Virus record (IMG/VR): IMGVR_UViG_3300010389_000056 | Coordinates: 1-35,597 of that record | Length of the DNA: 35,597 nt | DNA from: a virus | Reading direction: 5' to 3' (one strand) | Shown here: in pieces, positions 4,312-14,550 of the stretch | How the letters are laid out: each line of letters starts with the position of its first letter | Position numbering within the stretch: the first letter of the stretch is position 1 | The notes under the pieces: generated by a model | Told to the model about the DNA's origin: nothing | The model's database searches: none | The model's input: only the letters and a program-made list of their open reading frames with translations | Made by a program: the position numbers and the translations under genes

Positions 4312-5202
4312 TTAGAGGAAATGGGAGAGGGGGGTTGCAGGCGCTTCTAGACGCCTCTCAGCGACCTCATCAAGGCGCTGTAGGATCAGTTCAGAATAGT
4401 CGCGGTGCAACTCACATCCAATATAGTGCCTATCCATGGATTTGGCAACAGCAGCGGTGGTGCCACTGCCCATGAAAGGATCTAGGATAATGTCACCTGC
4501 TTCACTACCTGCTAGGATAGCAGGTTCAATCAATTCACGAGGGTAAACAGCACAGTGAGCACCTTTGTATGGTTTAGGTTGTACTGTCCACACACTCTTC
4601 TTACGCTTCATGCTAGCACCATCGACTGTGGGTTCTTTGATAGACTCCACATCAAAATAGTATCGCTTGCTCTTACTAAGCAAGAAGATATATTCATGTG
4701 ATTTGGTACAACGATCACGCACACTCTCAGGCATAGGATTAGGTTTGCTCCAAATCATATCCTGACGCAGATACCAACCATCAGCACGGAGTGCAAATGC
4801 TAGCATCCACGGAATACCAATGAGATCTTTATCCTTGAGACCCTTAAGTTTGTTACCTCGTCTAGGATTTTTGATTTGTGGTAGATCTTGGTTGCTGGAT
4901 GCCATAGACTGCTTGGGCAGCACCTGACCCTTGCCAGATCGATAGTTGTAATAACTATCGCCAATGTTCACCCACAATGTACCATCATCTGTCAGACAAT
5001 CACGCACACCACGAAATACCTCAACCAGTTGTTGGATAAACTCTTCGGGCGATTCTTCCAGACCAATCTGTGCATCTTCGTTACCGTAATCACGCAGACC
5101 ATAGTATGGTGGCGATGTCACACACATGCGAGCGCGGACACCAGACGCTGCGAATTGTTGCAGGGTCTCTCTACAGTCACCGTACAGAATAGTATCCTTC
5201 AA
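4312..5202 (-). CDS. DNA methyltransferase, TSPPY type (probable N4-cytosine)
   Basis: The 296-residue protein carries the methyltransferase catalytic motif TSPPY at 29-33 near the N-terminus and the S-adenosylmethionine-binding motif DPFMGSGTT at 241-249 near the C-terminus. This order defines the beta class of amino-methyltransferases (N6_N4_Mtase family). A serine in SPPY is usual for N4-cytosine enzymes, though some N6-adenine enzymes share it. The start is TTG at 5202, overlapping the endonuclease stop (TTTGA) and preceded four bases upstream by a strong GGAGG. The next methionine (residue 26) would remove part of the fold. Together with the overlapping upstream gene it forms a probable type II restriction-modification pair. 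M.MvaI and M.BcnI enzymes are also N4-cytosine methyltransferases, which fits. Confidence 0.88.
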   Translation of the reverse strand: MKDTILYGDCRETLQQFAASGVRARMCVTSPPYYGLRDYGNEDAQIGLEESPEEFIQQLVEVFRGVRDCLTDDGTLWVNIGDSYYNYRSGKGQVLPKQSMASSNQDLPQIKNPRRGNKLKGLKDKDLIGIPWMLAFALRADGWYLRQDMIWSKPNPMPESVRDRCTKSHEYIFLLSKSKRYYFDVESIKEPTVDGASMKRKKSVWTVQPKPYKGAHCAVYPRELIEPAILAGSEAGDIILDPFMGSGTTAAVAKSMDRHYIGCELHRDYSELILQRLDEVAERRLEAPATPLSHFL

Positions 5203-5885
5203 AGCGCCTCCTTGACAAACAGTTCTTCCATTTTACCATGATTCATACGAAATGCAGTACCACGGTTGCGGAGAGATTTACCAATATTATTCTGTGTACG
5301 CATACGAATATCAATAGCAATCATATCATTCTCGATAGCAGCGCGAAACAATTGTTTATCAGTACCAACGAAGCGGAATGCCTCATTATAATGGAAGTAT
5401 TCCACACCATCACGCTTCTCTACATCCGCAAATACTTTGACACATGCGGGAAACTTCTTAGCAAACTGGTCTACTAGAGTATCCCAGTCCCACTTGACGA
5501 TGATAGTATCACCATGCACAACGGCACAGTAATCATCAGTGGTCACAATAGACAGACCACGCTTGTTAACAGTCTTAGTAACAGTAGATTGTCCACTCAT
5601 CTCACCAATCTTAGTGGTGTGAGGGAAACCATACTGTGCAATATAATCTTTCTGGGATACGACCCACTTACCTTCTTTAGTGAACAATGTCTGCTTACCA
5701 CCAGCACCTTTACGCGCTGCTTTAAGTTCATTGCCCACAAGATCGGGACCAGAGATACAATTCTCTGTCAATCCCAATTCTTGTTCGAGAGTGTGACCCA
5801 CACCAGTGTTACCTTTGCGATGGGATTTGATAAAACCTCGTGCTTTGAGGGTACAAAACTTTTGTTTGAATGTAATAAGATCCAT
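5199..5885 (-). CDS. Probable MvaI/BcnI-family type II restriction endonuclease
   Basis: The 228-residue protein has, near its N-terminus, the sequence pattern I associate with the MvaI/BcnI family: GVGHTLE at 28-34, LGLTEN at 37-42, then PD at 47-48 and NELK at 52-55 followed by R58. E34, D48, E53 and K55 are the expected metal-binding and catalytic residues of a PD-(D/E)XK nuclease, and all are present, so the enzyme looks intact. MvaI cuts CCWGG and BcnI CCSGG as monomers; the specificity of this protein cannot be read from sequence. The gene precedes and overlaps the methyltransferase gene, as in a compact type II system. In a lytic phage it may degrade host or competing DNA while the partner methylase protects the phage genome. 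That role is inferred. Confidence 0.78.
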   Translation of the reverse strand: MDLITFKQKFCTLKARGFIKSHRKGNTGVGHTLEQELGLTENCISGPDLVGNELKAARKGAGGKQTLFTKEGKWVVSQKDYIAQYGFPHTTKIGEMSGQSTVTKTVNKRGLSIVTTDDYCAVVHGDTIIVKWDWDTLVDQFAKKFPACVKVFADVEKRDGVEYFHYNEAFRFVGTDKQLFRAAIENDMIAIDIRMRTQNNIGKSLRNRGTAFRMNHGKMEELFVKEAL

Positions 5886-5917
5886 GGGTAATCCTCAATG
5901 AATGTGTTATATGTGTG

Positions 5918-6160
5918 TCAGCAGTAGACAGGAGTGTAATCAGAACCTTGGTATGCTTCAGTGTTGAAGTCAGTGACCTCAGCACCGTTGGCGAGGTAGT
6001 TACGGATGTCGTAGAGGGCGTCAGACTTGACACGGGTGGTGAAAGAAGTCATCTGCTGAGAGATCTCTTCAGTGGGGTGCCAGATGACACGCTTGACGAA
6101 ACGCTTGCCACCAGCGACAGGGTAGAAGTCGATCTGGGTGGCAGAGGTTTGGAGTTGCAT
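5918..6160 (-). CDS. Unknown phage protein, 80 aa
   Basis: ATG 6160 follows a TATGAT/AAGGTAATC/ACCC leader. The product begins MQLQTSATQIDFYPVAGGKR and looks beta-rich in its first half and helical in its second, with a C-terminal SDYTPVYC. It lies between the ParB-like gene (whose terminator is just upstream) and the restriction endonuclease, 32 bases ahead of the latter. It is probably the first gene of the transcription unit that includes the restriction-modification pair, but nothing shows a role in that system. Confidence 0.65.
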   Translation of the reverse strand: MQLQTSATQIDFYPVAGGKRFVKRVIWHPTEEISQQMTSFTTRVKSDALYDIRNYLANGAEVTDFNTEAYQGSDYTPVYC

Positions 6161-6189
6161 GGGTGTCTCTCGATTACCTTGTAATCATA
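6158..6189 (-). promoter_or_regulatory. TATGAT-type promoter and leader, copy 3
   Basis: Just downstream of the terminator at 6196-6217, the minus strand has TATGAT (6189..6184), then AAGGTAATC, GAGAG and ACCC directly before ATG 6160. It shares AAGGTAATC and the CCC-ATG junction with the leader at 4086-4119. It probably drives the 80-aa gene and the restriction-modification pair. Confidence 0.5.
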
Positions 6190-6195
6190 CAGCAT

Positions 6196-6217
6196 AAAAA
6201 AGGGGTCTTGCGACCCC
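6196..6217 (-). terminator. Rho-independent terminator after the ParB-like gene
   Basis: On the minus strand GGGGTC-GCAA-GACCCC (6217..6202) forms a perfect 6-bp stem with a GNRA-type tetraloop, followed by six T residues (6201..6196). It begins 15 bases after the stop codon of the ParB-like gene and directly precedes a new promoter, so it separates the two units. Confidence 0.88.
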
Positions 6218-6231
6218 CATGTGACACTAGA

Positions 6232-7227
6232 TCAACTGTCCACCTCTGTCACGTCAAGGCAGAATCTTTTACTAATCTTACATGCTTGTTCCATGGTACT
6301 AGCACCAATACAATGCCGTGGTGGAATGTTATTGATAGAGCAATAGTCCTTGTAATCAAACAAGAATTGATGAAGAACCCACTTGTGAGTATTGCCATCT
6401 TGAGGCAAACCTTTCATGAATGTAGATTGCTTCGTGTCACGATACTTCTTAGACAAGAATTTATGAAACTCTTTACGCTGACCCTCATTGAGGACTTCAT
6501 TCATAAACTCTTGAGTGAAAGTACATCCACGAAGAGTAGAACCAGTGACAAAACCCTCAGCGAAGATGTCTGTCCAGAGCTTCATGCCATCAATGTGATG
6601 TTGAATACCCTTACCGATTCTATAATCAACGGTTGTCATGATATAGAATTGATTGAATGATTTCAATTCAATAGCATCGTCATCTAGACTACCAAATCGG
6701 TCGCAGTGAACTTTCAATGCCTCCATCACAGTGAGAATCCAACATGCTTCAGGATCATCAAATAGTACACCTGCCCGAATGATGTCAATCTTAGAGAGTT
6801 TGCGACGCTTGCTATTCAGTGCGTGAAACAATTCTGCTTCTAACTTTAGACATTCTTCCAGAGTTGCGTCATCATCATGCTCTAGGAGCATTGCTGGATA
6901 TGTTTCACCGCTTTCCTTTGCCTCTGCCAGTTGAAAGAATACTCCCTTATGTTGTCCATCAAGACACCAATCTCCTCCTTGTTCACCAAGATATAATGGA
7001 CGACGCGCAATTACACCTGGCACCAAAAGCATACGATTCAACTGAGTAAAATCTTTGATAGCAGCAGGACTAAAATCTCGCTGATATTGAGTAGAAACTT
7101 TGATGTTACTCACGTCATCAAATTCTACATAGCGCAACTTCTTTCCATGTGCGCCATTAATAATCCATTTCTTTGCTTGCTTTACCACTTTAGGATCAGC
7201 AGCAATCTGTGCGATTGTTTGGTACAT
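6232..7227 (-). CDS. ParB/DGQH-type nuclease-like domain protein
   Basis: The 331-residue protein has an N-terminal part typical of ParB/sulfiredoxin-like proteins: YQRDF at 48-52 (a conserved strand with the YQR signature), a VPGVIARRP segment at 69-77, and LDGQHK at 89-94, the DGQHR-like motif. The rest is mainly helical and unassigned. Proteins of this fold bind DNA, hydrolyse nucleotides or act as nucleases, and in phages and islands often lie beside DNA methyltransferases, as here between two of them. It has its own sigma70-type promoter with a 5' inverted repeat and its own terminator, so it is transcribed separately from the adjacent modification genes. It might be a regulator or a DNA-processing partner of the modification system; the sequence does not say which. 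Confidence 0.65.
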   Translation of the reverse strand: MYQTIAQIAADPKVVKQAKKWIINGAHGKKLRYVEFDDVSNIKVSTQYQRDFSPAAIKDFTQLNRMLLVPGVIARRPLYLGEQGGDWCLDGQHKGVFFQLAEAKESGETYPAMLLEHDDDATLEECLKLEAELFHALNSKRRKLSKIDIIRAGVLFDDPEACWILTVMEALKVHCDRFGSLDDDAIELKSFNQFYIMTTVDYRIGKGIQHHIDGMKLWTDIFAEGFVTGSTLRGCTFTQEFMNEVLNEGQRKEFHKFLSKKYRDTKQSTFMKGLPQDGNTHKWVLHQFLFDYKDYCSINNIPPRHCIGASTMEQACKISKRFCLDVTEVDS

Positions 7228-7251
7228 TTGTTACCTCGTTGTTATTTTGTC

Positions 7252-7270
7252 GTCCGCTAATTGTGCGGAC
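7252..7270 (-). promoter_or_regulatory. Inverted repeat at the 5' end of the ParB-like transcript
   Basis: On the minus strand GTCCGC-ACAATTA-GCGGAC (7270..7252) is a perfect 6-bp inverted repeat with a 7-base centre. It lies about seven bases after the -10 box, so it would be at or next to the first transcribed base. It could be an operator for autoregulation or a hairpin protecting the mRNA 5' end. Confidence 0.55.
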
Positions 7271-7277
7271 ATTAGTA

Positions 7278-7305
7278 ATTATAACAGATTACTCAACAAA
7301 GTCAA
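7278..7305 (-). promoter_or_regulatory. Sigma70-type promoter of the ParB-like gene
   Basis: On the minus strand TTGACT (7305..7300) and TATAAT (7283..7278) are separated by 16 bases, and the -10 is a perfect consensus. The promoter overlaps the last codons of the upstream methyltransferase and lies about 50 bases before ATG 7227, which has GAGG seven bases upstream. It is the best host-type promoter in the window, suggesting early expression by host RNA polymerase. Confidence 0.8.
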
Positions 7306-8128
7306 GTACATTGTGCTCATTTTTGATACGTGTTAGCATCTTCTCATAATACTCTTCATCACGCTCACATCCAATATACTTGCGACCTGCCCGCTTTGCA
7401 GCGATAGCAGTAGACCCAGAACCCATGAAGATGTCCAACACAGTGTCACCTGGGTTAGAATATGCGCGGATGATGCGCTCCATTACCTCAAGATTCTTGG
7501 TGGTAGGATGCCAACCACAATAATCTTTTGATGTAGTGTGGTTGTTCTTCTCCCAAATACAGGTGGGAATAGTACCCTTTGCAAACGCAGTCTGAGGATC
7601 AATATACTCTGCCTTGTGAGCAGCAATCTCTTCCCGTGTAGCATCTGGGTTGTTAGACTTATACTCTGCGAGGAGTTTCTTCTCAAGGTTCATATTCTTC
7701 TTGACCTTGCGTTCTACGCGCACATCATCAGCATTAAACAGGAAGTCTTCGCCAGTAGACCAACACCATGCGTACTCATGTTTGCGAGCAAAGTTAGTCT
7801 TAGCACGTCCACCCCAGTTGTATGCCCAAATGATCTCATTCTGTGGTATGAGACGAGAATTCATGCTAGTCTGGATCTTATACTTCAAGAATGTCTCAGT
7901 CTTGAGTGTTCCCCACACAATAAACATGCGATTGGGTTTCAACACACGGACACATTCATGAGACCAGGCAGCACACCACGAGAGATAAGCAAACTCATCT
8001 TCCCATTGCTTATCCCATCCCTTGCCACCATCAAAACCAATGAAGTATGGTGGATCTGTGACTACCAGATCCACACTATTATCCTCAAGAGTCTTGAGGT
8101 AGTCTAGGCAATCTTTATTTTCAATCAT
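7289..8128 (-). CDS. DNA methyltransferase, DPPY type (probable N6-adenine)
   Basis: The 279-residue protein has DPPY at 25-28 near the N-terminus and DIFMGSGST at 232-240 near the C-terminus, the beta-class order of catalytic then cofactor motif. The DPPY form is usual for N6-adenine methyltransferases. The segment after DPPY (a GFDGGKGWDKQW run) resembles the target-adjacent loop of the M.MboII/M.DpnIIB-like enzymes. A central region of about 100 residues (about 105-205) is probably target recognition. The start, ATG 8128, lies eight bases inside the upstream nuclease-like gene, mirroring the other endonuclease-methylase pair. The target site cannot be deduced from the protein. Confidence 0.88.
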   Translation of the reverse strand: MIENKDCLDYLKTLEDNSVDLVVTDPPYFIGFDGGKGWDKQWEDEFAYLSWCAAWSHECVRVLKPNRMFIVWGTLKTETFLKYKIQTSMNSRLIPQNEIIWAYNWGGRAKTNFARKHEYAWCWSTGEDFLFNADDVRVERKVKKNMNLEKKLLAEYKSNNPDATREEIAAHKAEYIDPQTAFAKGTIPTCIWEKNNHTTSKDYCGWHPTTKNLEVMERIIRAYSNPGDTVLDIFMGSGSTAIAAKRAGRKYIGCERDEEYYEKMLTRIKNEHNVLDFVE

Positions 8129-8663
8129 TCAGCAGGGTCTCCAGATCTTTCATGTCTTGGGTAGCACGGTCAACAATCGCTTTCGCTTTCTCTTCAGCAA
8201 ACTGCTTCAGTTTGACATTCTGCTCACCGATACGATATGCTTCATAGATTTTAGCACGAAGTTCTGTTTCCATGCAACCATACTTAGCAACTTCTGTGGG
8301 GTTGAGGTTGACTTGAGCACACTCAATAGCACTGTGAGAGTGTTGCCCTTTCTTGTTCAAGACTTTCTTGAGAATAGTAGTAGGATCGATTACAGCATAG
8401 TCATAATCATAGTATTTGTTACCACTGAGGTCTACAACAATGACCTCATAACGAGTACAATGAACTTGATTCAGACCAACTTTATTAGCAGTACAATCTT
8501 TATGCTCTACGAAGAAATTTTCCTCTTTGAACCAGAGATCATCAGTGTGCTTACCCTTGTGCTCAGGAAGAGGTTTGTCAGCACCCAGAAGATCACGAAG
8601 ACGTGCCTCAACCCCAATAGATTCTGTCTTGATCGAAGAGTTTTTGCGAGTGCTGGTGGTCAT
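8121..8663 (-). CDS. Putative PD-(D/E)XK restriction endonuclease partner
   Basis: I chose ATG 8663 (180 aa, begins MTTSTRKNSSIKTESIGV), since a promoter-like region and a terminator lie just upstream. The frame is open to 8714, but that would start inside the terminator. Residues D41 or D42 followed by FFVEHK (E53, K55) give the spacing of a PD-(D/E)XK nuclease core. The next segment, VGLNQVHCTRY (62-72) and a hydrophobic strand, resembles restriction endonucleases, where Gln and Arg residues complete the site. A coiled helical C-terminus follows. It overlaps and precedes the DPPY methyltransferase, as expected for a type II pair. I cannot name the family, so assignment rests on the motif and context. 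A non-nuclease phage protein is the alternative. Confidence 0.5.
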   Translation of the reverse strand: MTTSTRKNSSIKTESIGVEARLRDLLGADKPLPEHKGKHTDDLWFKEENFFVEHKDCTANKVGLNQVHCTRYEVIVVDLSGNKYYDYDYAVIDPTTILKKVLNKKGQHSHSAIECAQVNLNPTEVAKYGCMETELRAKIYEAYRIGEQNVKLKQFAEEKAKAIVDRATQDMKDLETLLND

Positions 8664-8681: not shown

Positions 8682-8692
8682 GTATAGTATGG
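8682..8692 (-). promoter_or_regulatory. AT-rich -10-like sequence before the nuclease-like gene
   Basis: On the minus strand CATACT (8692..8687) overlaps TATACA (8687..8682), about 20-30 bases before ATG 8663 and just after the terminator at 8697-8721. This fits a promoter restarting transcription after termination, related to the TATACT class. The following leader lacks the AAGG and ACCC pattern seen elsewhere. Confidence 0.35.
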
Positions 8693-8696
8693 CATG

Positions 8697-8721
8697 AAAA
8701 AGGGAGGGCGTCAACCCTCCC
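8697..8721 (-). terminator. Rho-independent terminator
   Basis: On the minus strand GGGAGGG (8721..8715), a six-base loop and CCCTCCC (8708..8702) form a perfect 7-bp stem followed by five T residues (8701..8697). It ends the transcript of the upstream small genes. The 3' end of a possible 20-aa reading frame overlaps the hairpin. Confidence 0.85.
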
Positions 8722-8773
8722 CAACCAGTTCTTCAACTGTCACCCCAGATCGGGTGGAGTTCTGTTTTAGCAT
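8711..8773 (-). CDS. Possible 20-aa peptide ending in a terminator hairpin
   Basis: ATG 8773 to TGA 8713..8711 encodes 20 residues, ending RSGVTVEELVGEG. It fills the gap after the 89-aa gene and ends inside the terminator stem, so translation could influence termination. It is too short to prove coding by itself. The composition resembles small cyanophage peptides I recall, but this is weak support. Confidence 0.28.
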   Translation of the reverse strand: MLKQNSTRSGVTVEELVGEG

Positions 8774-9817: not shown

Positions 9818-10420
9818 TTATCGAAGCGCACCACCACCCCCACCAGAAACTGTTACAGTTATATTACTATCGTTCATTCCATATGTACCTGTAGGAACAA
9901 CATTGAAAGCGATACTACACCTAGGTTTTCTTGATTTGTGTGGCATTATAACATGATGAACAAAAGAAGGAAACAAAACTATATCGCCTTTATTTGGTTC
10001 AAAGATATATTGATTTGAACCAGGACTAACACCATCATTTACACTTCTATTGCCATCATGCCATCGCCAGGGCATTGGATGCCTGAACAATATAGGAGAA
10101 GGATTCTCAGTAATGTAAAGAACACCACTGTAGAATGAATTTGTGTGATAATGATCGTATCCGTGTCTATAATTCGACTCTGTATATGTCATCCAACTAG
10201 AAAATATACAGAACTTATAATATCCAAAATTATTCATTACTTCTTTAGTAATTTCATGTATTGGATCATATAGAAAACTAAACTGTGTATTAAGAACACT
10301 GTTATCAACACTCATTGCACCAAAGTATGGTGTATTAGCAATGGCATTTTGACATTGTTCATCATCCAGTTCTATTTTATTGTAATAAAATGGACAAGCA
10401 AACAAATCTTTTCTGTTCAT
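9818..10420 (-). CDS. 2-oxoglutarate/Fe(II) oxygenase-like protein (SGxLYI type)
   Basis: The 200-residue protein contains HYHTNSFYSGVLYI at 90-103, the pattern of the 2OG-FeII_Oxy_5-like family in which His residues bind iron. H155/H156 sits in a conserved FPSFVHH segment and R164 or R167 may bind 2-oxoglutarate. Such enzymes hydroxylate or demethylate protein, nucleic-acid or small-molecule substrates. Unusually, the C-terminus ends SGGGGGALR, a short glycine tail like those in the fibre protein encoded upstream. It is the last gene of the late oxygenase cluster. Its substrate is unknown. Confidence 0.75.
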   Translation of the reverse strand: MNRKDLFACPFYYNKIELDDEQCQNAIANTPYFGAMSVDNSVLNTQFSFLYDPIHEITKEVMNNFGYYKFCIFSSWMTYTESNYRHGYDHYHTNSFYSGVLYITENPSPILFRHPMPWRWHDGNRSVNDGVSPGSNQYIFEPNKGDIVLFPSFVHHVIMPHKSRKPRCSIAFNVVPTGTYGMNDSNITVTVSGGGGGALR

Positions 10421-10683
10421 TATGATCCCAGTCCATCATTTTCAGGAACAACATCGTCATCATCCACTCTATCAACGGATGCGATGTCGCAGACAGGCAC
10501 CTCATGTTCATTACCAATGCGATACCAATGCATCATATAACCATGGTATTCTGGATGTGCTGAGTATTCAGCAGTGTATTCAAATTCACCCAAGTATTTG
10601 ATCTCTGTCTCTGGGATATTGTGATCACGAAGCATCGCTTGCAGTTGCATATGCTGCAATTCATATTGTGTAGGAACTTTCAT
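10420..10683 (-). CDS. Unknown acidic protein, 87 aa
   Basis: ATG 10683 lies three bases after the upstream oxygenase stop. The product begins MKVPTQYELQHMQLQAMLRD, continues with a Tyr/His-rich middle (AHPEYHGYMMHWY) and ends in an Asp-rich tail (VDDDDVVPENDG). It overlaps the next start. It may be an accessory factor for the neighbouring oxygenases, but no domain supports that. Confidence 0.65.
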   Translation of the reverse strand: MKVPTQYELQHMQLQAMLRDHNIPETEIKYLGEFEYTAEYSAHPEYHGYMMHWYRIGNEHEVPVCDIASVDRVDDDDVVPENDGLGS

Positions 10684-10686
10684 TAT

Positions 10687-11211
10687 TCAAGCATTCTTAA
10701 TATTGAAGGAGATGATTAGTCTTGGTAAGTCAGATTGCACCACATTACATTGGTGCATCAAGGCAGATGGGAAGAAGATAATATCTCCTTCACTAACCTG
10801 AGGAACATACTCTATCACATCACCCTCAATAAAGTCAAGGTATGGAGCGAAGAATGACGTTGGTTGGTGGTCACTTTCTAAACTGGCATAAAAGATAGCA
10901 CTATACCCCAGTGCTCCATGATTATGTAAAGGATGCAAACATCCACGACTGTACTTCTGTGCCCAACAATTACTTATAGTGAATTTATTTGGATATATTC
11001 CATTAAATTCATTGAGTGCTGGTGAAATAATCTCAAAGAATTTAGAAGCATATGTTGGTTGAATACCATTTCGATGAAACTTGAAGTAATCAGTCTCATG
11101 AAATTCTTCTTTATCCAATTCCATCAATGACAGAATCTCTTCTTTATGATCAGACCAATTCTCTATACTATATGCAAAAATAGGTACACTGAAGGCAATA
11201 TTATGCCTCAT
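10687..11211 (-). CDS. 2-oxoglutarate/Fe(II) oxygenase-like protein, 174 aa
   Basis: I chose ATG 11211 (begins MRHNIAFSVPIFAYSIEN), which overlaps the upstream gene by 11 bases. The frame is open 13 codons further upstream inside that gene. HNHG at 96-99 within a GALGYSAIFYAS strand matches the iron-binding region of the 2OG-FeII_Oxy_5-like group. The distal H153 (FPSALMHQ) and R164 complete a plausible active site. The same layout occurs in the 200-aa oxygenase, so the two may be distant paralogues. The substrate is unknown. Confidence 0.75.
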   Translation of the reverse strand: MRHNIAFSVPIFAYSIENWSDHKEEILSLMELDKEEFHETDYFKFHRNGIQPTYASKFFEIISPALNEFNGIYPNKFTISNCWAQKYSRGCLHPLHNHGALGYSAIFYASLESDHQPTSFFAPYLDFIEGDVIEYVPQVSEGDIIFFPSALMHQCNVVQSDLPRLIISFNIKNA

Positions 11212-11602
11212 CTGGTCTGTTCTTACCGCGTCTAAGTCTCTGATTTTCATACAAAGTTACACCATCATTACTAACAATAGCAACATTATACCAGAAAGGA
11301 TCATTTTCCACACCATCTGGTAGTTCATCTCTACGAGGAAAATAGTCAGTCACAAAATCAATTGCCACATCATAGTTCCTAAACTCAATGTATCCATAAT
11401 AGTGTGTCTGCATTAGTGAAAGTAACTGTACAGGAACATCTTCATTGAATTGATAATGTTCAATAACTGATGTTTTTACAGTATCGTCAGAAGATTGCAG
11501 TCTCGAATTACCCCAGTAAACAAGAACACCATCAACACCAGCAGCATCTGCTATAATTTGGTCCCAATCCTTTTCTTCATCAAATGTCTGTAGGTTGTTC
11601 AC
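11201..11602 (-). CDS. Unknown protein, 133 aa
   Basis: The start at ATG 11602 overlaps the upstream oxygenase by 23 bases. The protein begins MNNLQTFDEEKDWDQIIADA and alternates beta strands and acidic turns. Its C-terminal 20 residues are basic (RLRRGKNR). It lacks the His-x-Asp/Glu motif of the neighbouring oxygenases, so it is not simply a degenerate copy. No family is recognised. Confidence 0.65.
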   Translation of the reverse strand: MNNLQTFDEEKDWDQIIADAAGVDGVLVYWGNSRLQSSDDTVKTSVIEHYQFNEDVPVQLLSLMQTHYYGYIEFRNYDVAIDFVTDYFPRRDELPDGVENDPFWYNVAIVSNDGVTLYENQRLRRGKNRPDEA

Positions 11603-12119
11603 TAGTATCCTCCAACTTCTTTAATTTATATGCAGCAGTAATTCTAATACCATAAAATTCTCGTGTTACATCTTCTGCCCAATGCAACAATTTAGATGGA
11701 AATAACACAGCAGAGAATGGTTTTGGGAATACTACATCAAACTTACCATCATCCTGAACAAATACTGTCTTTCCTCCCCATTGTAAGTCCCAGTGTGGAT
11801 TACAATAGATCAAAAACGTATAATCAGCATCATCTTTATGTGGAGTACCATCAAGACCTCTAGTATATCCATTCAAGTAATAATCCAAAATCTCAAACTC
11901 AAATGGTAATAGAGTTTTCATTCTTTCTGGTATCACTTTTTCAAACATAGCAACACCTCGAACATCCATCTTCCAAAACTTTTTGAATGGTGTTGCTACA
12001 TCGCTAGAAGCACCAAACAACCATCTTGGACGACTTGCTATTTTTTCTATTTCATGTACATCAGATACTTTCAATACATTTTCATATACTTTTATATCTG
12101 TCAATAATGGTTCAGTCAT
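11580..12119 (-). CDS. 2-oxoglutarate/Fe(II) oxygenase, prolyl-hydroxylase-like, 179 aa
   Basis: The iron-binding triad is clear: H94 and D96 in PHKDD, and H146 in LLHW. R159 in the following GIRITAAY strand is the expected 2-oxoglutarate ligand. The double-stranded beta-helix core also shows WGGKTVF (114-120) and a AVLFPS strand, common in prolyl 4-hydroxylase-like enzymes (2OG-FeII_Oxy_3). ATG 12119 is separated from the upstream stop by a single base. Prolyl hydroxylation is only one possibility. Confidence 0.82.
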   Translation of the reverse strand: MTEPLLTDIKVYENVLKVSDVHEIEKIASRPRWLFGASSDVATPFKKFWKMDVRGVAMFEKVIPERMKTLLPFEFEILDYYLNGYTRGLDGTPHKDDADYTFLIYCNPHWDLQWGGKTVFVQDDGKFDVVFPKPFSAVLFPSKLLHWAEDVTREFYGIRITAAYKLKKLEDTSEQPTDI

Positions 12120-12120
12120 G

Positions 12121-12771
12121 TCAATTTCTCAAAACACTACTTCTTCTAATCAATCCCATTCTAATGTGATCTAATTTCACAGTATCTTCCCTGGTCAAAT
12201 TATCACATGTATTATAATAAAATTCATTTAGATCAGCAAGATAGTATCTCATTACTTGATCATGAATAGAACTTTCACACCAGAATGTAATGCATTTTCT
12301 CACTCCATGCGTGATAGGTCTAACACCATGAATGTATTCAGTAGGATACATTAATAGTTTTCCTGGTTCTAATTTAGATTCCACTACATTATCACCAAAT
12401 TTTATATAATGCTCACCACCTTCATAATCATCATTCAAATTGATCACACATGTAAAATCAGTTCTACATCCCCACATATCAAATGCATCAACGTGATCTG
12501 AATAATGTTGACCTTCTCCATATCTCAACATCATACAAGGAGATGCTTTATTCAGTATATGAATATCAGTAACAGTAGATTCACGAAGAATTTTTGCAAT
12601 ACCAGAATTGACCATCTTATTGATGTCAATATCTTCTTGCTGATAATTGTTTTTTACTTCTTTGTCTTTTGGTCCTGATATTGCACCATCAACAAATTTT
12701 CCAGCATCAAACAAACTCAGCATTTGTCTCAGTTGGTTTCTATCTAAGAAATCAAATTCATATGTTCTCAT
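12121..12771 (-). CDS. 2-oxoglutarate/Fe(II) oxygenase, PKHD-type, 216 aa
   Basis: The segment RYGEGQHYSDHVDAF (83-97) supplies the H93-x-D95 iron motif, EGGEHYI (117-123) the typical turn after it, and H148 (YIHGV) and R158 the distal iron and 2-oxoglutarate ligands. This pattern matches PKHD/prolyl 4-hydroxylase family enzymes, and all catalytic residues are present. ATG 12771 overlaps the upstream gene by four bases. It belongs to the same late operon as the tail genes, so it probably acts on virion proteins or host surface, but substrate evidence is absent. Confidence 0.85.
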   Translation of the reverse strand: MRTYEFDFLDRNQLRQMLSLFDAGKFVDGAISGPKDKEVKNNYQQEDIDINKMVNSGIAKILRESTVTDIHILNKASPCMMLRYGEGQHYSDHVDAFDMWGCRTDFTCVINLNDDYEGGEHYIKFGDNVVESKLEPGKLLMYPTEYIHGVRPITHGVRKCITFWCESSIHDQVMRYYLADLNEFYYNTCDNLTREDTVKLDHIRMGLIRRSSVLRN

Positions 12772-13103
12772 TCTAATACTTCCCTCAAAGATCTTATATA
12801 ATTTTGTACAGCATCTTTATACATTGCTTCCAAAGTTGGCATTGGAGCACAAATATTCATAACATTATCAAAACTAATCAAAAAAGATGTGTCAATGGAG
12901 AAAAACTTCCATGGTACTAAAGAAACAGGAACTCTATCACTATCAGCAGTTGGATCTCTTTTTATAATTCTAAAAGGGTAAATCATATTATAACATACCT
13001 TTATTTTTTCACCATTGACCTCTTCATAATAATCTTGAAGATTAGCAATCACCTCTTCACCACTGACCAAAGTGATGATGATTATATTAAGTTTGGTTTC
13101 CAT
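12768..13103 (-). CDS. Small conserved phage protein, possible Sm-like fold, 111 aa
   Basis: The protein begins METKLNIIIITLVSGEEVIA, continues with beta strands up to residue 80, and ends with a helix. The first strand followed by SGEEVI and a later LVPWKFFS resemble the small Sm-like proteins common in T4-like cyanophages, as far as I recall, but the match is by pattern only. ATG 13103 lies two bases after the upstream stop. It sits between a tail-chaperone-like gene and the oxygenases. Function unknown. Confidence 0.6.
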   Translation of the reverse strand: METKLNIIIITLVSGEEVIANLQDYYEEVNGEKIKVCYNMIYPFRIIKRDPTADSDRVPVSLVPWKFFSIDTSFLISFDNVMNICAPMPTLEAMYKDAVQNYIRSLREVLE

Positions 13104-13105
13104 AA

Positions 13106-13924
13106 TTATACATTATTTGCTTGAATTTTAGCGAGTACGTAGTCTAGTTCATCCTGTTCTGTTTCAAATTCAGGATATGGAGCAAAGATAAGATCAGGGT
13201 TCTTGATCTTATAGTTAGAAGCGATTGTCATTACAATTCTTTTAGCATATTCACTGTATGTTGTAGCAGTAAAATTGCCAAACTGATCTTCGGTCATCAA
13301 ATACTCTTTATCCTGATTCCCCTCTCTCAAAACAAATGTAGTCTTGAAATACGTTGGATTGATTGGGAACATAACTTCATCAGCATCCTGTCCAACATGA
13401 ACACTAGGAAGATCTCTGAGTTTTGATCGATAAAGTGTCCACATTGCTTTTGTTTCATCATCAATAGCAGCATCTGCAACTTGAGTCCAATCACTATCAT
13501 CAAGTAAGAAGTTCCTAATCATTCTGATACCTTCCCAAGAAACTTTATTCCACCTACCATACTCATTAAATAACTTTTCTTGAATAGTTTCTTGACTTGA
13601 ATCAACATATGAAAAATACTGTTCAGTTAGTTGTTCTACAAGTTGATCCACTTCTTGTTGAGTTGGTTCTCTCCAAGAATAAGTTCTCCACTTTCTTTCT
13701 CCTGTAGCACGATCATAGACATATTTTTTCTTCTCAATGTCATGACTACCATCACTAAAATAATTTATAGTAATTAGACGATCTTTATCAGAAGACCAGA
13801 ATGGATATAAAACTGGTTGAATGTTTTCATTCCACCAGTCTTCATCAATAAATTGTGACTTACCATCTTTGATAATAAATCGCTCAAGTGCATTGAGCTG
13901 CAATGTGATACGAACGTCTGCCAT
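13106..13924 (-). CDS. Protein with phage tail assembly chaperone-like domain, 272 aa
   Basis: Residues about 134-173 contain RNFLLDDSDWTQVADA followed by a K..W..YR..LRDLP pattern. This is the signature of the phage tail assembly chaperone family (Phage_tail_APC), usually found beside tail-fibre genes, and the position four genes after the giant structural protein agrees. The N-terminal 110 residues and the C-terminal 90 residues (acidic end, VLAKIQANNV) are not recognised. The product probably helps fold or assemble fibres encoded upstream. The start is ATG 13924. Confidence 0.72.
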   Translation of the reverse strand: MADVRITLQLNALERFIIKDGKSQFIDEDWWNENIQPVLYPFWSSDKDRLITINYFSDGSHDIEKKKYVYDRATGERKWRTYSWREPTQQEVDQLVEQLTEQYFSYVDSSQETIQEKLFNEYGRWNKVSWEGIRMIRNFLLDDSDWTQVADAAIDDETKAMWTLYRSKLRDLPSVHVGQDADEVMFPINPTYFKTTFVLREGNQDKEYLMTEDQFGNFTATTYSEYAKRIVMTIASNYKIKNPDLIFAPYPEFETEQDELDYVLAKIQANNV

Positions 13925-13929
13925 TTTGA

Positions 13930-14550
13930 TTACGGGAGTTTTATGAACCAGCCTGTCGCAATATATTTATCATGGGTGAATACAGTGTTGCCACGATGAA
14001 CATGTGTCATACCAGCAGGCCATATTAGAACAGTTCCTGTTTTTGGTCTATATCTTTTCTTTTGATACAAAAACTCTGTCTCCGCCTCTCCTTCTGGCAT
14101 GTCATTCAAATATACCATCCATGCCAATTCTCTATTTGCTGCTCTGAAACTAGAGTTTTCATAGTGCCATGTGTGATAACCACCACCAGGAGGAGTTCTT
14201 TGTATTTTGATACCAACAGAATTCATATTTACTCTACTTATATGATCATATTCTGTTTTATAGTTCTCAAAAGCAGCATTCAAATACTTATTAAAATGCA
14301 TTGCAGTTCCCATATCAATGTCATCAAGCATTAGAGAAACATCATGTCTTGCTAATTTTGCTGTTGGCATCTGATCCTTACCATATTGAACAAGGTAAGG
14401 ATTAGTTTCTATCCATTTCTCAAAATTACTAACAATAAGAGAACAAATTTCATGGTGAACTAATCTTTCATAGACACCAATAAAATCTTCATATTTTGAA
14501 TTTACTCTGCTTGGATCTATAATACAATCAGTTTCACTTGCGGCTAGCAT
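13930..14550 (-). CDS. 2-oxoglutarate/Fe(II) oxygenase-like protein, 206 aa
   Basis: After a helical N-terminal 110 residues, the core shows GGGYHTWHYE (122-131). H129-x-E131 provides a His-x-Glu iron motif (or H126 contributes), H183 or H185 in MTHVHRG is the distal His, and K195 or a nearby residue may contact 2-oxoglutarate where other members have Arg. A Glu in place of Asp and the missing Arg make it more divergent than its neighbours. ATG 14550 is one base after the tail-fibre stop, so it belongs to the same late transcript. Probably active, substrate unknown. Confidence 0.72.
   Translation of the reverse strand: MLAASETDCIIDPSRVNSKYEDFIGVYERLVHHEICSLIVSNFEKWIETNPYLVQYGKDQMPTAKLARHDVSLMLDDIDMGTAMHFNKYLNAAFENYKTEYDHISRVNMNSVGIKIQRTPPGGGYHTWHYENSSFRAANRELAWMVYLNDMPEGEAETEFLYQKKRYRPKTGTVLIWPAGMTHVHRGNTVFTHDKYIATGWFIKLP
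13964..13971 (-). promoter_or_regulatory. Possible internal late promoter
   Basis: GATAAATA on the minus strand (13971..13964) resembles the T4-type late motif TATAAATA and lies 40 bases before the chaperone-like gene's ATG 13924. It is inside the end of the oxygenase gene, so it may be coincidental. Confidence 0.25.

Follow-up and report, generated by a model that had tools for sequence, protein, structure and literature searches.

Pairs of a nuclease gene and a DNA methyltransferase (MTase) gene are known from bacterial type II restriction-modification systems, such as those of MvaI and BcnI or of MseI-type specificity, and also from some viruses. In chloroviruses such as PBCV-1, about 25% of the MTases have a companion nuclease, and an attack on host DNA has been proposed (PMC7019647). 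The Marseilleviridae carry a GATC system which is proposed as a weapon against co-infecting viruses (PMC7253447). In a 2023 paper, chlorella viruses and giant viruses are the sole exceptions named to restriction enzymes being prokaryotic (PMC10101028). Here we analyze a 35,597-base IMG/VR contig (hereafter the window, by which we mean this whole stretch), a fragment of a T4-like cyanophage (Kyanoviridae) whose closest DNA relatives are Synechococcus and Prochlorococcus myoviruses. Two nuclease-MTase gene pairs and a gene between them all lie on its minus strand (Table 1). We consider it likely that each pair is a complete type II restriction-modification cassette, in which the MTase would protect phage DNA and the nuclease gene is an exchangeable module.

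The locus resembles the bacterial systems in that each nuclease gene adjoins an MTase gene, the predicted sites are CCWGG and TTAA, and nuclease 1 is homologous to R.MvaI and R.BcnI. It differs in its T4-like phage carrier, in the exchange of the nuclease independently of the MTase, and in having three unrelated nuclease families for a single MTase lineage. Virus-borne pairs are shared with the chloroviruses (PMC7019647), but those viruses have eukaryotic algal hosts and are known to package the nuclease in virions. The Marseilleviridae likewise have a complete virus-borne pair; there it is a single conserved system of an amoebal giant virus, and the available portion of the report mentions no nuclease swapping (PMC7253447). 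Among cyanophages, S-RSM4 has a 'restriction endonuclease II' and a DNA methyltransferase at a similar position with the same conserved flanks, but its 'restriction endonuclease II' shows no sequence relation by tblastn and has no Pfam nuclease match.

Exchange of nuclease genes upstream of MTase 2

The 180-amino-acid (aa) protein encoded upstream of MTase 2 (nuclease 2) defines family A; two other putative nuclease families, B and C, occupy the same place at other loci. A sibling locus, L053, is 97.5% identical to the window at the nucleotide level over window positions 10500-8674 and 99.0% identical over 8128-6117, and carries a family-B open reading frame (ORF) of 168 aa where the window has the family-A ORF. 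The nuclease ORF alone has been replaced, with borders about 10 bases before its ATG and at the MTase ATG. With one ORF standing in for the other next to an MTase that is 99% identical, the 180-aa protein would do the same job as family B, and this swap is the strongest evidence that the two may share a role.

A search with MTase 2 gave 80 loci, and 65 clusters at 98% identity formed a non-redundant viral set. A nuclease of family A, B or C stood directly upstream in 33 of the 65 (19 of family B, 9 of C and 5 of A), and the remaining 32 had none of these there, or a different gene. For pair 2, then, three sequence-unrelated families of predicted nucleases are shown to share one slot; families A, B and C could not be linked to one another by profile-profile comparison, and comparison of their sequence profiles with the PDB gave nothing useful.

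Family B (about 166-183 aa) has invariant D69...E78-I-K80 and W93-Q-Q-x-R motifs and matches the PADLOC model REase_II (E=6e-15 to 8e-23). The AlphaFold model of the 168-aa protein of L053 has a predicted local distance difference test score (pLDDT) of 93.9, and its PDB fold neighbours are I-Ssp6803I, NhoI, PvuII and EcoRV (best E 1.3e-3, probability 1.0). Judged by this modelled fold and by its catalytic motif, family B is a PD-(D/E)XK nuclease. R.MseI, a TTAA enzyme, is about as long as the PADLOC model matched by family B. Family C has invariant D63-A64...E73-x-K75-S.

Close relatives of the 180-aa protein were found at L005, L006 and L007 only, in searches of viral, genome, plasmid and phage collections, and every one stands upstream of MTase 2. 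More remote members (L100, L087 and L088) turned up as MTase-2 neighbours. Residues D42, E53 and K55 are invariant among homologues down to 25% identity, and the pattern D...E-x-K...NQ...QH is common to the three remote members; in L087 and L088 the E-D-K residues were seen by eye in an uncertain alignment.

Several MTase-2 loci showed further arrangements. L086, L089, L092 and L094 have three-gene arrays of nuclease, MTase 2 and an MTase-1-like gene, and TTAA is absent from L089, L092 and L096. In L054, next to a family-B/MTase-2 pair, positions 4380-5946 contain another MTase gene (DLPYGTT) and, overlapping it, an ORF of 236 aa with no Pfam match, possibly making this another double-cassette phage.

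Mobility of the nuclease module

Compared at fourfold-degenerate sites, L007, which represents a different T4-like phage background, is 82% identical to the window over nuclease 2 and 31% identical over MTase 2 (Fisher p=2e-8). For pair 1, the same comparison with L012 gives 66% for the nuclease and 33% for the MTase (p=4e-5). Nuclease and MTase are equally distant from the window in the closer relatives L008, L010 and L027. That silent sites are closer in the nucleases than in the MTases shows that nuclease genes were placed beside older, diverged MTases. The nucleases are under purifying selection, with ratios of nonsynonymous to synonymous substitution rates (dN/dS) of 0.03-0.28 overall and 0.03-0.18 for nuclease 1. 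As read from sequence, the nuclease gene is shown to be a separable module that travels from phage to phage and inserts upstream of an existing MTase. The reverse route has been suggested for the orphan MTases of chloroviruses, as remnants of lost pairs (PMC7019647).

Pair 1 encodes an MvaI/BcnI-family nuclease

The 228-aa product of the pair-1 nuclease gene had been described as MvaI/BcnI-like, and this was confirmed. Its match to PF15515 reaches 128 bits against a cutoff of 25, with residues 8-223 aligned, and its PDB relatives are R.MvaI (E=8e-14) and R.BcnI (E=0.0025). D48, E53, K55 and R213 are invariant in 11 sequences, and the catalytic triad aligns with that of R.MvaI. Nuclease 1 was found on 29 viral contigs, and MTase 1 follows it directly in 26 of the 28 viral relatives where this is visible, several of these contigs being near-duplicates; such recurrence argues that the pairing is not due to chance. 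The synteny in related phages to which the preliminary description had looked as a check is thus seen for pair 1 in most relatives and for pair 2 in all close relatives of the 180-aa protein. MTase 1 is far commoner than nuclease 1 (at least 600 stretches), mostly has other neighbours, and is often solitary among wider viral relatives.

The preliminary description also held that two full pairs side by side would be unusual, and the second pair was indeed not found among the other nuclease-1 records searched. Neither a family-B nuclease, in 15 other such records, nor a true MTase 2 beside nuclease 1, in the virus records searched, was detected; viral contigs are fragments, so these absences are weak.

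Candidate target words read from genomes

For words of 4-6 bases with enough expected counts, we compared carriers of a cassette with other phages, deriving expectations from the inner words; counts below are found/expected. CCWGG ranked first of 2399 words for depletion in pair-1 carriers (193/322, against 1705/1939 in 8 cyanophage isolates). CCWGG is the MvaI recognition site, and the result backs both the assignment of nuclease 1 and the word method. In MTase-2 carriers the most depleted word was TTAA (511/947, against 3778/4281 in controls), with a z score of -10.4 and the next word at -3.6. The window itself has 65/143 TTAA sites; with synonymous codons shuffled, the count is 52 and the expectation 152. 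By this second null the control S-RSM4 falls a little short too, which makes the ratio to controls the better yardstick. The predicted sites are CCWGG for pair 1 and TTAA for pair 2. AGCT and GGCC were strongly depleted as well, in the window and in the tested cyanophage records. CCGG was rejected as a cassette target, being near zero in every cyanophage tested, cassette or not (window 0/14, S-SM1 0/140, S-RSM4 0/135). Its absence masks any depletion of CCSGG, the other site considered for an MvaI/BcnI-family enzyme.

Family-B nucleases in cultured cyanophages

Family B is present in cultured S-BM3 and in the S-ShM2/S-SSM2/S-RIM14 species. The genes concerned, SBM3_00004 of S-BM3, annotated as a restriction endonuclease, and SShM2_059 of S-ShM2 (T4-GC 685), differ from the window in being unlinked to MTase 2 or without it, and in the genome-wide loss of TTAA. 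In S-BM3 the nuclease and MTase 2 lie 82 kb apart, and TTAA stands at 74/513 over 159 kb. In S-ShM2, where MTase 2 was not found, the whole genome of 179.5 kb has no TTAA against 586 expected, and S-SSM2, of the same species, has 0/590. Six isolates that lack family B and a close MTase 2 have TTAA at 0.79-0.98 of expectation. An unlinked family-B gene, predicted for contigs with a solitary MTase 2, was found on none of 18 such contigs, most of which are fragments. The 2010 paper describing S-ShM2 and S-SM1 has no mention of 'restriction', TTAA or GTAC in its main text (PMC3037559).

Other words are missing from particular lineages. S-SM1 has GTAC at 0/491 and carries, behind the T4-GC36 helicase gene, a 170-aa ORF with DLIDANGFSYESK (SSM1_072; L255:43522-44034); the family-B nuclease of S-ShM2 has the same helicase-gene position. 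SSM1_072, which has no relatives in the phage collection, is a candidate GTAC nuclease, the link being a single case. GTAC stands at 43/576 in S-WAM2 (L263-L272) and CTAG at 18/186 in S-RIM32 (L291-L294).

Proposed system and alternative explanations

That the gene upstream of each MTase acts as a restriction-type nuclease matched to it is supported by predicted catalytic residues that are kept, by purifying selection, by the sibling swap and by the lineage-specific depletion of CCWGG and TTAA. In the system that we propose, virion DNA would arrive methylated at CCWGG and TTAA. Each nuclease gene overlaps the MTase gene downstream, to which it is probably translationally coupled, and the nuclease-first order with overlapping genes would permit early cutting, comparable to the timing reported for melbournevirus (PMC7253447). 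In the infected cell the nucleases would cut unmodified DNA, be it the host chromosome, a co-infecting phage or both, and the MTases would keep progeny DNA safe. Phages that have a nuclease and no cognate MTase would escape self-cutting by purging the site.

Several observations weigh against this proposal. The 127-kb T4-like record L032 has the pair-1 nuclease, at 6001-6693 near the gp44/gp43 replication genes, but CCWGG is undepleted there (102/116), so that site loss failed as support for nuclease 1 in this record, and no PF01555 MTase was detected in it. Family-A loci outside the cyanophages show little TTAA depletion (L007 13/16, L087 20/25, L088 34/37, L100 55/61), and the TTAA assignment for family A comes mainly from the swap and from the cyanophage carriers (the window and L005). 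Word depletion is a correlation, drawn from carriers that are related to one another; the near-absence of CCGG irrespective of cassette indicates that some word loss has other causes. Lastly, for the 180-aa protein, the AlphaFold model from three sequences was unusable (pLDDT 38.5), and the protein has no match, to a nuclease or any other family, in Pfam, PHROGs, NCBIfam, PADLOC or the PDB.

The lack of a family match and of a usable model would also suit a role of the 180-aa protein as an accessory to MTase 2, for instance a regulatory or specificity subunit, instead of a nuclease. We regard this as quite improbable: its ORF is swapped one for one with that of a PD-(D/E)XK nuclease that models well, next to a nearly identical MTase, the D..ExK..NQ pattern is kept at 25% identity, and MTase 2 often stands alone and so needs no helper. 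That same solitary occurrence, seen with both MTase 1 and MTase 2 in wider viral relatives, would be expected if the MTases alone mattered, as anti-restriction shields against host enzymes, with the nuclease ORFs decaying or incidental and word depletion caused by host restriction. The avoidance of CCGG by all cyanophages, whatever their cassette, also fits this explanation, which we nevertheless hold to be unlikely. The nucleases are intact, under purifying selection, fresher than the MTases and swapped as whole genes, and TTAA loss tracks family B even in S-ShM2, where it is total without MTase 2, while the six isolates that lack family B and a close MTase 2 keep most of the expected sites.

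A less distant possibility, though still a doubtful one, is that each nuclease gene is a selfish, homing-like element standing on its own, spread by repair after cutting co-infecting genomes that lack it, with the MTase as a convenient immunity gene. The nuclease genes do move independently of the MTase, the sibling swap involves a single gene with exact borders, lone nuclease copies occur in S-ShM2 and L032, and the homing endonuclease I-Ssp6803I is among the fold neighbours of family B. The process would resemble marker exclusion by the T4 Seg/Mob endonucleases, which are also mobile nuclease genes of T4-like phages that could exclude rivals. Those enzymes belong to different families, have long target sites and lack an MTase partner. 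A target of 4-5 bp is far less specific than a homing site, and cutting at hundreds of sites would shred a rival genome, not copy one gene into it. Because the cutting of rivals can itself favour the spread of a cassette, the restriction system that we prefer and the selfish explanation overlap and are not exclusive.

Layout of the locus and the middle gene

The positions of the ORFs (Table 1) bear out the two gene pairs, their coordinates and their overlaps as first described: nuclease 1 and MTase 1 overlap by 4 bases, and the 180-aa ORF and MTase 2 by 8. Both MTases score above the Pfam cutoff for N6_N4_Mtase. The promoter-like site of cassette 2 is largely common to L053. The phrog_500 gene flanking pair 1 adjoins variable cargo in S-RSM4, S-WAM2, S-H9-1 and metagenomic loci. 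At 9818-14550 of the window, a run of 2OG-Fe(II) oxygenase-like and endonuclease V-like genes adjoins the tail genes, following the annotation of S-RSM4.

The middle gene had been reported to have a promoter and a terminator of its own, and a promoter-like site and a terminator-like hairpin were located. Its description as ParB/DGQH-like was not supported: neither the 331-aa protein nor its relatives have a ParB, DGQHR or DndB match in Pfam, and the label goes back to a single short DGQHKG motif. The protein occurs in the same place in L053 (100% identity), L063, L065, L072 and L073. Proteins with DGQHKG, NGDHRL or KGQHRV motifs, all without a Pfam ParB match, recur at this locus directly downstream of MTases (for example L057:3807-4904 and L010:4265-5479).

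Table 1. Features of the two cassettes and their surroundings in the window
Feature	Position	Strand	Description
MTase 1	4312..5202	-	TTG start; beta-class TSPPY; Pfam N6_N4_Mtase E=9e-53; PADLOC MTase_II E=8e-105
Nuclease 1	5199..5885	-	228 aa, MvaI/BcnI-family; PF15515 E=6.7e-37; D48-E53-x-K55
80-aa conserved cyanophage gene	5918..6160	-	Upstream flank marker of pair 1; phrog_500 E=1e-24
Terminator-like hairpin	6201..6218	-	Behind 331-aa gene
331-aa middle protein	6232..7227	-	DGQHKG motif; follows MTase 2 directly; phrog_2558 (unknown function) E=5e-35
Promoter-like site of 331-aa gene	7278..7305	-	TTGACT-16-TATAAT; extended -10; 11/12 matches
MTase 2	7289..8128	-	Beta-class TDPPY; N6_N4_Mtase E=6e-49; M.RsrI (PDB) E=3e-31
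Nuclease 2	8121..8663	-	180 aa, family A, putative PD-(D/E)XK endonuclease; D42...E53-H-K55...N65-Q66...G106-Q107-H108...I113-E114-C115
Promoter-like site of cassette 2	8686..8714	-	TTGACG-17-CATACT; -35 within hairpin 8701..8722
Terminator-like hairpin	8701..8722	-	Upstream of cassette 2

Implications

Complete type II systems are already known in chloroviruses and giant viruses; the modular phage version, presumably self-protected by methylation or by total purging of sites, looks new. Whether the principle extends more widely we judge to be an even matter: marine T4-like phages may share a pool of mobile, mutually replaceable cutters of 4-5 bp sites, accepted through a matching MTase or a purged site, with unrelated TTAA families competing for one slot and the weapon readable from the missing word. 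If the proposed cassettes are real, abundant ocean phages would be armed with exchangeable enzymes that cut DNA at specific sequences, and unrelated nuclease families would have converged on one site beside a single MTase lineage. Direct predictions with named sites would follow for the cultured phages S-BM3, S-ShM2 and S-SM1, and new small restriction enzymes could be obtained from such phages. Orphan phage MTases would gain a second explanation, as licences for such cutters.

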